Positions 14,824-19,761 of a stretch of DNA of 26,781 nt are shown in pieces. Location of the stretch: positions 1-26,781 of IMG/VR virus record IMGVR_UViG_3300025652_000440. One strand, 5' to 3'. This stretch comes from a virus. Positions within the stretch are counted from its first letter, which is position 1, and each line of letters begins with the position of its first letter. The position numbers and the translations under genes are program-made. Below the pieces are notes generated by a model, which ran no database searches, was not told the origin of the DNA, and was given only the letters and a program-made list of their open reading frames with translations.

Positions 14824-16512
14824 TTAAACTGATCTAAATCTGTTTATACTCCCTCTTTGATTTGCTAAAAAAATATCGTTTCCACTTATTCTACCATAAA
14901 CCTCAACTTGCTGAACACCTCCACCATTTATCATTCCTTTTAATTTATCTAATGGAGCTACGACCTCCGGATTTGATGCTGTTGTTCCAGCTCCCTCACC
15001 AACCAAAGCCATTGTTGGACCAGTAACCAAACCACCACTTGCTAAGCCTAAAATTGATGTTTTTGCAGCTGTAAATGCTTTTCCAATTGTCATATCTTTT
15101 CCTCCTAATAATATGTTAATTGCTGTCAATACTGCTAATTGCATCAATAGTTGTTTTATTGCTTTTTTCATGTTTTCTATAAACGAACTGAAAAATCCTT
15201 CTTGACTATTTGCAGCACTCATCATTGCACTAAACATTACATCACCAAATAATTGAGTTGCAGCGTTTAATTGTTTTTGAGCTTCGGCTGCCATTGTAGA
15301 GCTTTCTTCTCTTTCCTCATAGTATGTTCTCCATGCTCTTCCAGTATCTAATAAAACTGGCTTTAAAGATTCTATTTTTTTTGTTATACCAGCAATTCTT
15401 GTTTCTACTTTTTTCTCTTCGTCATCATCACCAGTTACTTTAATATTTCCAAAAGTTGAGAATTTTTTTAGTTTTTTTCCACTTGGATCAAATAATAAAG
15501 ATGGCTCACCCAATTCATCAGTTATTTTTTTTAACTCTTTTACACTACTTGTAAAGTCATCAACATGTTTTTTTGAATTTTTAAACTCTCTGAATTTATC
15601 AGTAACAAACATAGCTGCAACACCAATTGCAGACAAAACAACAGCAATTGTTGATGCTGACATTGCAGCAAAAAATCCTATAATAGCCGAAAGAGATGCA
15701 GCCAATATTCCTAAAATTGTAATTACTGGACCAACAGCTGCCAATATTTTTGCGTAAAAAACTATATTTTCTTTTTGTTCTTTAGTTAATCCAGAAATTA
15801 TTTTTGTTAGCTTTTCAAAACCCTCAGTTAATGGCTGTAATTGTTCTGTTATTATTTCACCAAACTCTTCACCAACATCACCAATTGCATTTCCTAAAGC
15901 CTTAAATGCTCCCAACCCTTTATCTCTAATTGCTTCAGCTTGTCCCTCAAATTTTTCTGATAATGATTGAGTTAATACAATTGCTCTTTCTTGCTGACCA
16001 GTTACTCCTTTTAATCCAGTATTAAAATATCTTGCTAATGCATCAGTAGTTGTTGAAACTGATTTACTTACTAATGATGTTGCGCCTACCAAATCCATGC
16101 TTAAGCCAGTAGCCATGTTTTGAATCTGAGGAATTAACATAGTGATTTGATCTTCTGTTAATCCTAATGAGGCTAACAATGCTTGTGCTTTTATTGTTTC
16201 CTCATCACCAAATAAAGTTTTTGTTTGTAATTCTTTAGCTTGTGCAATTAATCTTTGCTGTATATCTTCACGACCTTTTAAGGCTGTAAGTAATTTTGTT
16301 TCTGCAACTATTTGTTCATCAAATGCTTTTACAGATGCAGCTGCAAATGCAGCCAATGGCAATGTTAAACTTCTGGTTAAGTTTTTACCAGTTCTCTGCA
16401 TAGATGTACCAAATTTTTTGATACTTCTTTGAGCTTTTTTCATTGCTTTGTCAAAGCCTCTTAAATCAGCTCCAAATGCAATAGTTAATAAACCAACACT
16501 CTTATTTGCCAT
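14824..16512 (-). CDS. Tail tape measure protein
   Basis: I use the ATG at 16512 (562 residues); a GTG two codons upstream is possible. The protein starts with the 'SVGLLTIAFGADLRGFDKAMKKAQRSIKKFG' helix of tape measure proteins, continues with long amphipathic helices, and has a hydrophobic block near residues 250-305 (ILAAVGPVITILGILAASLSAIIGFFAA). The C-terminus has the classic GGLVTGPTMALVGEGAG...EVVAPLDKL signature. The length sets tail length; at the usual ~1.5 angstrom per residue it implies a tail of roughly 80-90 nm. The start overlaps the upstream chaperone frame by 11 bases. Confidence 0.9.
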   Translation of the reverse strand: MANKSVGLLTIAFGADLRGFDKAMKKAQRSIKKFGTSMQRTGKNLTRSLTLPLAAFAAASVKAFDEQIVAETKLLTALKGREDIQQRLIAQAKELQTKTLFGDEETIKAQALLASLGLTEDQITMLIPQIQNMATGLSMDLVGATSLVSKSVSTTTDALARYFNTGLKGVTGQQERAIVLTQSLSEKFEGQAEAIRDKGLGAFKALGNAIGDVGEEFGEIITEQLQPLTEGFEKLTKIISGLTKEQKENIVFYAKILAAVGPVITILGILAASLSAIIGFFAAMSASTIAVVLSAIGVAAMFVTDKFREFKNSKKHVDDFTSSVKELKKITDELGEPSLLFDPSGKKLKKFSTFGNIKVTGDDDEEKKVETRIAGITKKIESLKPVLLDTGRAWRTYYEEREESSTMAAEAQKQLNAATQLFGDVMFSAMMSAANSQEGFFSSFIENMKKAIKQLLMQLAVLTAINILLGGKDMTIGKAFTAAKTSILGLASGGLVTGPTMALVGEGAGTTASNPEVVAPLDKLKGMINGGGVQQVEVYGRISGNDIFLANQRGSINRFRSV

Positions 16513-16849
16513 GCTCACTCATTTTTTTAATATATTCAGCTTTTGCTTTCAATTTCTCGTAATCTATTTTCTTATCCTTTTTATCCCACTCAAACTCAAT
16601 CAAATCAGTTGGCTTTATTTTTTTACCTTTTGCTATTTGAATATTTAGTAACAAAGTAGTTTGCCATCTTGTTCTTTCCCACTTACTTCTTTCCCTTATA
16701 TTCTCAAGCTCATAAAAGCCATCCAACTTATTCCAAAAATGTTTAGGCAAGTAATCATAAAACTCTTTTACTCCCATGCCTAACTGTCCAAAAGCAATTC
16801 TCTCTAATCTCTGCCAAGTAAGAGCCTCTATTTCTTCTTGGCTTTCTGC
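16502..16849 (-). CDS. Tail assembly chaperone, C-terminal part made by -1 frameshift
   Basis: This frame is open from the slippery site and would be translated only as an extension of the preceding chaperone. After the shift it reads AESQEEIEALTWQRLERIAFGQLGMGVKEFYDYLP, the GT-type pattern of siphovirus chaperones in which a 'R.AFGQLGM...EFY' helix leads to a conserved C-terminal domain. The shifted product would be 218 residues (103 from the first frame plus 115). A stand-alone start at 16777 (91 residues) is possible but has no convincing ribosome binding site. The protein binds the tape measure, whose gene starts within its last codons. Confidence 0.8.
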   Translation of the reverse strand, partial: AESQEEIEALTWQRLERIAFGQLGMGVKEFYDYLPKHFWNKLDGFYELENIRERSKWERTRWQTTLLLNIQIAKGKKIKPTDLIEFEWDKKDKKIDYEKLKAKAEYIKKMSEHGK

Positions 16850-16855
16850 TTTTTT
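16813..16855 (-). promoter_or_regulatory. Programmed -1 ribosomal frameshift signal
   Basis: On the minus strand the heptamer A AAA AAG (16855-16849) sits in frame at codons Lys102-Lys103 of the first chaperone. It is followed by a 6-base spacer (CAGAAA) and a hairpin with GCCAAG and CTTGGC arms (16842-16837 and 16818-16813), plus an inner AAGA/TCTT stem with one bulged A. The zero-frame stop TAG lies inside the hairpin. After a -1 shift the frame is open through 16502 with no stop. Heptamer, spacer length and stem match the requirements for efficient -1 slippage. Confidence 0.85.
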
Positions 16856-17157
16856 CCAGTATTACCGCCCATTTGTTCAGCCAATATTTCCATAGCCTTT
16901 CCAATACTATCAAAATCACCATCAATTAAATCAGCTAAATCATCAACACTTAAATCACAATCTTGCTTTGCAGCTCTATGTCCATCTTCTATGCCACAAT
17001 ATATTAAAGTTAATGCATCATCTAATGTCATGTCCACACCAAGTTTATCTAAATCTTGTAATGATGTATTTGTTTTAGATGAATATTTTCTCAATGCATT
17101 AAAACCAAACTTAATTGGCAGTTTTTCTTTATTTATTTCTATAAAAGTATAATTCAT
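16828..17157 (-). CDS. Tail assembly chaperone, short form (G-like)
   Basis: The 109-residue product has a helical pattern, 'LPIKFGFNALRKYSSKTNTSLQDLDKLG' then 'TLDDALTLIYCGIEDGHRAAKQDCDLSVDDLADLIDGDFDSIGKAMEILAEQM', typical of the first tail assembly chaperone in siphoviruses. It ends in a Lys-rich tail read from the slippery region. In lambda-like systems the short form is made in excess and the long form by frameshift, and both coat the tape measure during tail assembly. It follows the major tail protein across a hairpin. The bases directly before the ATG are complementary to that hairpin's loop. Confidence 0.85.
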   Translation of the reverse strand: MNYTFIEINKEKLPIKFGFNALRKYSSKTNTSLQDLDKLGVDMTLDDALTLIYCGIEDGHRAAKQDCDLSVDDLADLIDGDFDSIGKAMEILAEQMGGNTGKKQKAKKK

Positions 17158-17217
17158 TTTTTGTTTAGTTTAGTAAGGATTGGAGCAATGGTACTAAACA
17201 AAAAGTACCAAAGCTCC
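17158..17217 (-). promoter_or_regulatory. Hairpin and RBS-complementary loop between tail protein and chaperone
   Basis: The transcript forms GGAGC/GCTCC and GGTAC/GTACC stems (17217-17182) around a 10-nt loop TTTTTGTTTA (17204-17195). The twelve bases directly before the chaperone ATG, ACTAAACAAAAA (17169-17158), are perfectly complementary to TTTTTGTTTAGT (17204-17193), which is the loop plus two stem bases. Either a pseudoknot or an alternative stem could therefore cover the chaperone's ribosome-binding area. No U-run follows, so it is not a standard terminator. Confidence 0.6.
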
Positions 17218-17229
17218 TCACCTAAGTTT

Positions 17230-17661
17230 TTAGTTTATTGTCTGAGTTAATACCCCAGTTCCTTCAATACTCATTGAATAAGTTGCAGTATCTTCCGTTC
17301 CACCAGTTAAACTTACAGATGTAATAAAACCAGATCCAGAGTAACTTATATCACTTGTTGATGCAGTATCACCAAAAATAAATGTTACAGCTTGTCTTGC
17401 GTTTAAAACATTAGTTTCTAAAACATCATCAACACCATCAGTTAAAGCTGATCCACCAGCATTAGTCCAAGCATAAGCTCCATCAATATCAATTGAGAAA
17501 TCTCTTAATCCTTCTAAAATTTCTTTATAACCTCCAGATTCTTTGTTTGTGATTTCTCTTGGTGAATGATTAACATTCAAAGTACAGTTTTGAGCAAATG
17601 CAACAAGATTAGTTGTTCCAGTGCTATAAACTTTTATTTCAGTTCCATTTAAAATAGCCAT
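17230..17661 (-). CDS. Major tail protein (tail tube)
   Basis: The 143-residue protein has the layout of TP901-1/lambda-V-like tube subunits: an N-terminal strand MAILNGTEIKVY, a loop 'NVNHSPREITNKESGGYKEILEGLRDFSIDIDG' typical of tube monomers, and C-terminal beta strands 'GFITSVSLTGGTEDTATYSMSIEGTGVLT'. Subunits stack into hexameric rings that form the tail tube around the tape measure. It sits between the tail-terminator group and the chaperones, in the standard siphovirus order. The leader is AATATAAAAAAGAAAAAAA, with no Shine-Dalgarno box but A-rich, as expected for strong Bacteroidetes genes. Confidence 0.9.
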   Translation of the reverse strand: MAILNGTEIKVYSTGTTNLVAFAQNCTLNVNHSPREITNKESGGYKEILEGLRDFSIDIDGAYAWTNAGGSALTDGVDDVLETNVLNARQAVTFIFGDTASTSDISYSGSGFITSVSLTGGTEDTATYSMSIEGTGVLTQTIN

Positions 17662-17682: not shown

Positions 17683-17853
17683 TTAATTATTTTCTTCGGC
17701 AACTTTTTGTTTTGCCTTTTTTTCTTTTTTTTCTTTTAAGTAACCATTATCTTTTAAAAAAGCAATAGTTTCTTCATTTCTTATTTCCATTTCAGTTCCA
17801 GCCATTATTACTTGACCAGCATACCTCCAATTTTTACTTAATTTTATTTTCAT
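17683..17853 (-). CDS. Small phage protein, 56 residues
   Basis: A 56-codon frame starts with ATG at 17853 in the gap between the tail terminator and the major tail protein. The product reads MKIKLSKNWRYAGQVIMAG, then an acidic strand, then 'TIAFLKDNGYLKEKKEKK' and a basic Lys-rich tail. The layout 'LSxxWxYxGxxxxxGxxxEIxxExxxxFLxxxGY' is typical of small phage proteins located among neck or tail genes. Exact role unknown. Codon use and position support a real gene. Confidence 0.65.
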   Translation of the reverse strand: MKIKLSKNWRYAGQVIMAGTEMEIRNEETIAFLKDNGYLKEKKEKKAKQKVAEENN

Positions 17854-19692: not shown

Positions 19693-19705
19693 ATTATTTA
19701 GTTAT

Positions 19706-19742
19706 AAAAAAAGGAGTGATGGTAATTCCACCACCCCTTTTT
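19706..19742 (-). terminator. Terminator behind the major capsid gene
   Basis: On the minus strand, GGGGUGGUGG pairs with CCAUCACUCC around an AAUUA loop, with two G-U wobbles, flanked upstream by five A and downstream by seven U residues. On the plus strand the wobbles become A-C mismatches, so the structure is directional for the gene order here. It lies 20 bases after the capsid stop codon and before the connector gene. Partial read-through would set a high capsid-to-connector ratio. Confidence 0.85.
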
Positions 19743-19761
19743 AAAAATTAATTATTATCTA

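Follow-up and report, generated by a model that had tools for sequence, protein, structure and literature searches.

A probable -1 ribosomal frameshift with a conserved, covarying 3′ stem-loop in the tail-assembly chaperone genes of an uncultured marine phage and its relatives

The window analysed here (the whole 26,781-base IMG/VR virus record IMGVR_UViG_3300025652_000440, from a marine phage) carried its structural genes on the minus strand as an HK97-like module, in the order terminase, portal region, capsid, connectors, tail terminator, tail tube, chaperone open reading frames (ORFs) and tape measure. The two chaperone ORFs overlapped (16828-17157 and 16502-16849) and were flanked by the tail tube gene on one side and the tape measure gene on the other, which is the layout of the lambda G/GT pair. 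A slippery heptamer, a short spacer and a stem-loop around the stop codon of the first ORF were found at the overlap (Table 1), and this cassette is, as judged from sequence comparison, very probably a -1 programmed ribosomal frameshift making a tail-assembly chaperone pair of the lambda G/GT type. The mechanism is a known one in phages and the case is new; for a tail-chaperone frameshift, a 3′ stem-loop stimulator has unusually strong comparative support here.

The heptamer was in the X_XXY_YYZ phase of the first ORF, the second ORF was in the -1 frame, and the short overlap contained no start codon, as in the lambda G/GT type. The -1 frame ran from GCA at 16849 to 16505, with its stop at 16504-16502; it opened only after a TAA at 16864-16862, which confined a shift to about 12 codons, and ATG, GTG and TTG were all absent from it ahead of the ATG at 16777. 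A shift at the heptamer would join 103 zero-frame residues to 115 -1 frame residues, giving a fusion of 218 amino acids (aa). These features had been pointed out in an earlier sequence-only reading of the window, and the heptamer phase, the 6-base spacer, the GCCAAG/CTTGGC plus AAGA/TCTT stem around the zero-frame stop, the 115 open codons and the 218-residue product were all confirmed with their coordinates in the sequence and by ORF reading. The description of the cassette as near-textbook held for cassettes of the dnaX/IS3 type but not for lambda, whose site is G_GGA_AAG.

Relatives were collected by four IMG/VR searches with the -1 frame protein, alone or in alignments, the signal not being a search criterion; at least 549 were confirmed in IMG/VR, and merging the searches and dropping duplicates gave 122 distinct junctions. 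The 5′ arm of the stem was placed by the heptamer plus 6 nucleotides (nt) and the 3′ arm by a conserved tryptophan (Trp) codon; pairing entered the alignment solely as a means of picking one heptamer in junctions that offered more than one in phase. Matches to the signal pattern alone were not counted, since IMG/VR contains chance ones, the two-ORF layout being absent from about 7 of 80 loci. In the first set, each of the 80 loci had an in-phase AAAAAAG immediately at the homologous -1 frame. The two ORFs were in the -1 relation in 121 of the 122 junctions (the exception was Cellulophaga phage phi39:1), and an in-phase heptamer, a spacer of exactly 6 nt and all six pairs were found together in 119; each of the other spacers from 0 to 12 nt gave at most three fully paired junctions. 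Among these 119 canonical junctions, the heptamer was A_AAA_AAG in 104 and G_GGA_AAG in 15, and the zero-frame stop was located in the loop in 116 and in the spacer in three, while the inner helix differed in sequence among relatives. The sequence-only reading had staked its case on heptamer and stem being retained in close relatives that keep both frames, and this was what the canonical junctions showed: of the remaining three, L269 had a 5-nt-spacer version with a CCCAGC/GCTGGG stem, and the other two, phi39:1 and L087, from which the stem was missing, were distant (36% and 35% identical to the window T protein, respectively). A second chaperone branch (L101 and L208), found by pattern search first and by protein search afterwards, had the same gene order, matches to phrog_16333 and phrog_183, and the same heptamer, 6-nt spacer and GCCAAG/CTTGGC stem, but here CTTGGC was read as Leu-Gly and not around Trp. 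No match was obtained when annotated phages were searched with the junction at the DNA level or when phages were searched by tblastn with the G domain.

Changes in the outer stem were compensated. The arms of the canonical junctions were GCCAAG/CTTGGC (100), GCCAAC/GTTGGC (11), CCCAAG/CTTGGG (6), GCCAGC/GCTGGC (1) and GCCAAG/CTTGGU (1), with compensatory double changes at three of the six pairs (1, 5 and 6). In 26 representatives, 98.1% of cells were paired compared with 86.0% in shuffles (0 of 500 as high), 13 cells were doubly changed compared with 3.5, and the covariation score was 0.278, versus 0.081 in shuffles and at most 0.027 in slid registers. RNAalifold, unprompted, predicted exactly the six-pair stem. 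When mapped on a T-domain tree inferred with the signal excluded, pairs 1 and 6 each showed three changes and the heptamer type six. Codon choice around the Trp followed the arms: with a 5′ arm starting in G, the next codon was always C-initial (encoding Q, R, P, H or L), apart from one Cys codon (TGT) with a G-U pair, and with a 5′ arm starting in C it was GAT (Asp) in six of six cases. Arg right after the Trp was encoded by CGN in 38 of 38 cases, compared with 44 of 636 later in the same ORFs (AGR, 592 of 636), and Ser before the Trp was encoded by TCT with GCCAAG and by AGT with GCCAAC. On this comparative evidence, the codon after the conserved Trp is set by pairing and not by the amino acid, and the stem-loop appears to be selected as a structure, at a distance within the 5-9 nt that usually separate a heptamer from its 3′ stimulator (PMC5009743), as in dnaX/IS3-type cassettes. 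A pseudoknot between the loop and downstream sequence was unsupported (longest helix 5.4 vs. 4.9 in shuffled sequences), and no Rfam family was found at the stem.

The stem might instead be a by-product of dual coding and of the conserved Trp, with the heptamer acting alone as in lambda; its 5′ arm does lie in a doubly coding stretch, its 3′ arm holds an invariant TGG, and three of the six pairs were never doubly changed. We consider this improbable, given that the other three pairs did change together, that Arg and Ser codons tracked the pairing, and that CTTGGC was kept in another codon phase in L101 and L208. RNA polymerase slippage, adding an A to the mRNA, would also reach the second frame, and A-runs of 6-8 were present in 104 of 120 junctions, with A9 at the junction in distant Bacteroides phage relatives; but the run in the window was just A6, a fixed 6-nt 3′ stem would have no role, and 16 relatives had G_GGA_AAG in the same place and frame (15 with a 6-nt and one with a 5-nt spacer). 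Polymerase slippage is excluded in these G_GGA_AAG members because their A-run is only 3, which points to ribosomal slippage as the common mechanism and makes a transcriptional origin very unlikely for the group.

Selection on the -1 frame was observed ahead of its first ATG. Between the stem and this ATG, site entropy by -1 frame codon position was 0.58, 0.19 and 1.24 bits, indicating a coding -1 frame and resembling the stretch after the ATG, and residues W12, E16, A19 and G21 were conserved. The sequence-only reading had predicted that annotation from the ATG at 16777 would truncate the second gene by 24 residues; 24 codons of the -1 frame do precede it, the public record of phi39:1 starts gp20 at an internal ATG, and the first residue of the -1 frame product covered by the PHROG 16333 profile is residue 18, as would be expected of a profile built from truncated annotations. 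Thus a separate protein started at this ATG, without any frameshift and with an incidental overlap, was hardly credible: a start codon was present at the site in 117 of 120 relatives (ATG in 113, TTG in 4) and the phi39:1 annotation makes this choice, but three relatives had TTA, which is no start codon, the constraint upstream is that of translated sequence, and heptamer, fixed spacer and covarying stem would be left without explanation.

The first ORF belonged to a tail chaperone family. In the window, the G part matched phrog_2115 (“tail protein”, E 2.7e-6) and phrog_183 (“tail chaperone”, E 0.024), and in relatives phrog_2115 (47 of 48), phrog_183 (11 of 48), Phage_TAC_11 (2 of 48) and Phage_TAC_12 (2 of 48). 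Its predicted structure (predicted local distance difference test, pLDDT, 83) matched viral models named tail assembly chaperone in BFVD, and its best PDB match was the HK97 tail assembly chaperone 2ob9 (Z 4.1 over 82 residues, root-mean-square deviation 4.1), a weak score at 7% identity and supportive only. The T part matched phrog_16333, a family without assigned function, in 47 of 47 relatives, and Phage_TAC_6 in 3 of 47. In the phi39:1 record, neighbouring virion proteins were detected by mass spectrometry while gp19 and gp20 carry no such remark; this pattern fits the absence of tail chaperones from the virion (PMC5009743) and is weak evidence.

Several observations weigh against a frameshifted chaperone pair. 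AAAAAAG occurred 32 times in the window (31.5 expected by chance), and the stem-loop had a minimum free energy (MFE) of -11.4 kcal/mol (z -1.78), with 11 of 200 shuffles folding as well; the single-genome signal is thus weak, and its significance comes from the conservation in relatives. Independent covariation events were few (about three per varying pair) and a phylogeny-aware sign test was without power, so that the case for the stem rests on every change being matched. The T part lacked a strong chaperone family name: the match to a chaperone C-domain claimed in the sequence-only reading proved weak when made directly (PF06223, E 0.05, below cut-off). The T-part model (predicted template modelling score, pTM, 0.47) had no PDB fold match, and neither G nor T had a significant match in a Foldseek search of PDB. 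Chaperone identity therefore relies on gene order, the family matches of relatives and a modest fold match.

Under the -1 frameshift reading, most ribosomes would translate the first ORF to the UAG at 16830-16828 and release the 109-aa G protein. While tRNA-Lys occupies AAA AAG in the P and A sites, the stem-loop, 6 nt further on, would reach the mRNA entry and slow translocation; in a fraction of ribosomes the tRNAs would shift back by one base to pair with AAA AAA, and reading would continue from GCA, with the 218-aa GT as a minority product. As in lambda, G would form a coat on the tape measure protein, and GT would recruit the tail tube protein through its T part. The slippage, its rate, the stimulatory role of the stem and these functions are proposed by analogy with established frameshift biology.

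Some relatives share the heptamer G_GGA_AAG with lambda gpG/gpGT (Levin 1993; Xu, Hendrix and Duda 2004, 2013, 2014, as cited in PMC5009743), whereas the window has A_AAA_AAG, and apart from the sub-threshold PF06223 match the sequences showed no detectable resemblance to lambda G or T. Frameshifting in certain tailed phages seems to proceed without stimulatory signals (PMC5009743); by contrast, the 3′ stem-loop found here is conserved, covaries and keeps a fixed distance of 6 nt. Cassettes of E. coli dnaX and the IS3 family likewise have A_AAA_AAG followed, after a short spacer, by a 3′ stem-loop, but serve another purpose in another gene. The 5′ Shine-Dalgarno (SD)-like stimulator of dnaX had no support here: the motif was present in 67 of 120 relatives only, and third bases of the upstream GGN GGN varied freely. 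Homologous T domains with the same gene order were found in phi39:1 gp19/gp20 (36% identity) and Bacteroides phage Bacuni_F1 gp5/gp4 (28% identity), both without the GCCAAG/CTTGGC stem. phi39:1 (L083 2985-3064, KC821626.1) needs +1/-2 at an A8 run (ATA AAA AAA AGA), and the direction of the frame has thus changed within the T-domain family, while Bacuni_F1 (L085 2954-2971) is in the -1 relation at an A9 run. A9 at the G/T junction, with the -1 relation, was seen in two gut relatives (Bacuni_F1 and L084 1860-1868), and is compatible with ribosomal and polymerase slippage alike.

A second RNA structure, a three-part hairpin (-23.7 kcal/mol, z -5.5, 0 of 200 shuffles), was predicted in the 72 nt that separate the tail tube gene from the chaperone ATG; its 10-nt loop would pair with sequence abutting the start codon in the window clade, or about 15 nt upstream of it in another clade. 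All 100 distinct relatives with enough flank had a leader z below -2 (median -4.1, mononucleotide shuffles). Other clades had different loops with matching partners (CTTTTCTGA/TCAGAAAAG, TTTTTTCAGGT/ACTTGAAAAAA, TTTGTTAG/CTAACAAA and TTTAGTTTGA/TCAAACTAAA), and in several of them the fit of the loop to its own partner was better than across clades, though not in clade E, whose loop also suits clade A. In 17 distinct members (window clade and near kin), double changes were found at 12 of the 24 pairs of hairpin and loop helix, with 42 doubly changed cells compared with 14.8 in shuffles. No Rfam family matched the leader; the single hit, to Phe_leader on the opposite strand, was below threshold (E 0.18) and was regarded as a chance match. 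At phi39:1, whose two genes lie only about 26 nt apart, no such element was seen, and L208 had an ordinary terminator-like hairpin at its position.

The leader is an apparently undescribed RNA structure and a more novel lead than the frameshift itself. Start-site occlusion, leaky termination and mRNA stabilisation may each be considered as its function on the basis of the predicted pairings. The window hairpin was not called an intrinsic terminator, though some relatives have a U-rich tail there, and in one clade the loop pairing ended about 15 nt ahead of the ATG and a U-rich tail followed the hairpin, so that occlusion is not the sole reading.

Table 1. Coordinates of the putative frameshift cassette, the predicted leader RNA and the flanking genes in the window.
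Feature	Position	Strand	Basis
Zero-frame ORF, gpG-like putative tail assembly chaperone, 109 aa	ATG 17157 to TAG 16828	-	ORF and family matches
Slippery heptamer A_AAA_AAG	16849..16855	-	X_XXY_YYZ phase; zero-frame codons 101-103 are GGA AAA AAG
Spacer CAGAAA, 6 nt	16843..16848	-	same length in 119/122 junctions
5′ arm GCCAAG of putative 3′ stimulator stem	16837..16842	-	fold and conserved pairing
Inner stem 5′ strand AAGA	16833..16836	-	MFE fold
Zero-frame stop TAG, in hairpin loop	16828..16830	-	sequence
Inner stem 3′ strand TCTT (bulged A at 16819)	16820..16823	-	MFE fold
3′ arm CTTGGC	16813..16818	-	covaries with 5′ arm at three pairs
-1 frame, putative T domain of GT fusion, 115 codons and stop	16502..16849	-	phrog_16333, E 5.4e-28
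Internal ATG, expected automated start of second gene	16775..16777	-	first ATG of -1 frame
Leader RNA element, predicted three-part hairpin	17158..17223	-	fold and covariation
Leader helix AGG/CCT	17223-17221/17178-17176	-	
Leader helix GGAGC/GCTCC	17217-17213/17186-17182	-	
Leader helix TGGTAC/GTACCA	17210-17205/17194-17189	-	
Leader loop TTTTTGTTTA, complementary to TAAACAAAAA abutting the ATG	17204-17195; 17167-17158	-	
Tail tube gene	17230-17661	-	directly before chaperone ORFs
Tape measure gene	14824-16518	-	directly after chaperone ORFs

Two further observations were made in the same module. A strong hairpin followed by seven T (AAAAAGGGGTGGTGG...CCATCACTCCTTTTTTT, about 19704-19743, minus strand) was located in the interval that separates the major capsid gene from the next connector gene; it is a probable intrinsic terminator (-20.6 kcal/mol, z -4.9), which would leave a structured gap behind both major virion genes. 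A small ORF of about 55 codons (MKIKLSKNWRYAGQVIMAGTEMEIRNEE..., 17684-17853, minus strand), below usual annotation size limits, lay in the stretch that separates the tail terminator gene from the tail tube gene.

An SD-like motif was present at only 2 of the 26 gene starts checked in the window (GC content 30%). Bacteroidota ribosomes do not recognise SD (PMC9976891), and the rarity of such starts is as expected if the hosts are Bacteroidota; the nearest annotated relatives of the T domain were phages of Cellulophaga and Bacteroides. Because of both lines of evidence, the window phage and its kin likely infect Bacteroidota. Profile searches of genome contigs with the T domain, and also with the terminase, found no relatives and no host genome, and no tRNA genes were found in the window.

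The two conserved RNA structures may frame the chaperone gene as one dosage device, in which a pseudoknotted leader would limit the chaperone with respect to the tail tube protein encoded upstream and the frameshift stem would then split G from GT, the leader being a cis-regulatory RNA family outside Rfam, in hosts without SD use. This is a tentative proposal, which we regard as plausible rather than probable. If regulatory, the leader would give a new handle on phage control of tail-protein stoichiometry. For annotation, PHROG 16333 shows that pipelines shorten the T domain. A large and diverse group of uncultured, mostly environmental phages, represented by the relatives described above, very probably joins the G/GT frameshift story, and since its stem appears to be structurally selected and its slip site has undergone about six changes between A_AAA_AAG and G_GGA_AAG, this group constitutes a natural data set on the co-tuning of slip site and stem, probably in hosts whose ribosomes ignore Shine-Dalgarno sequences.
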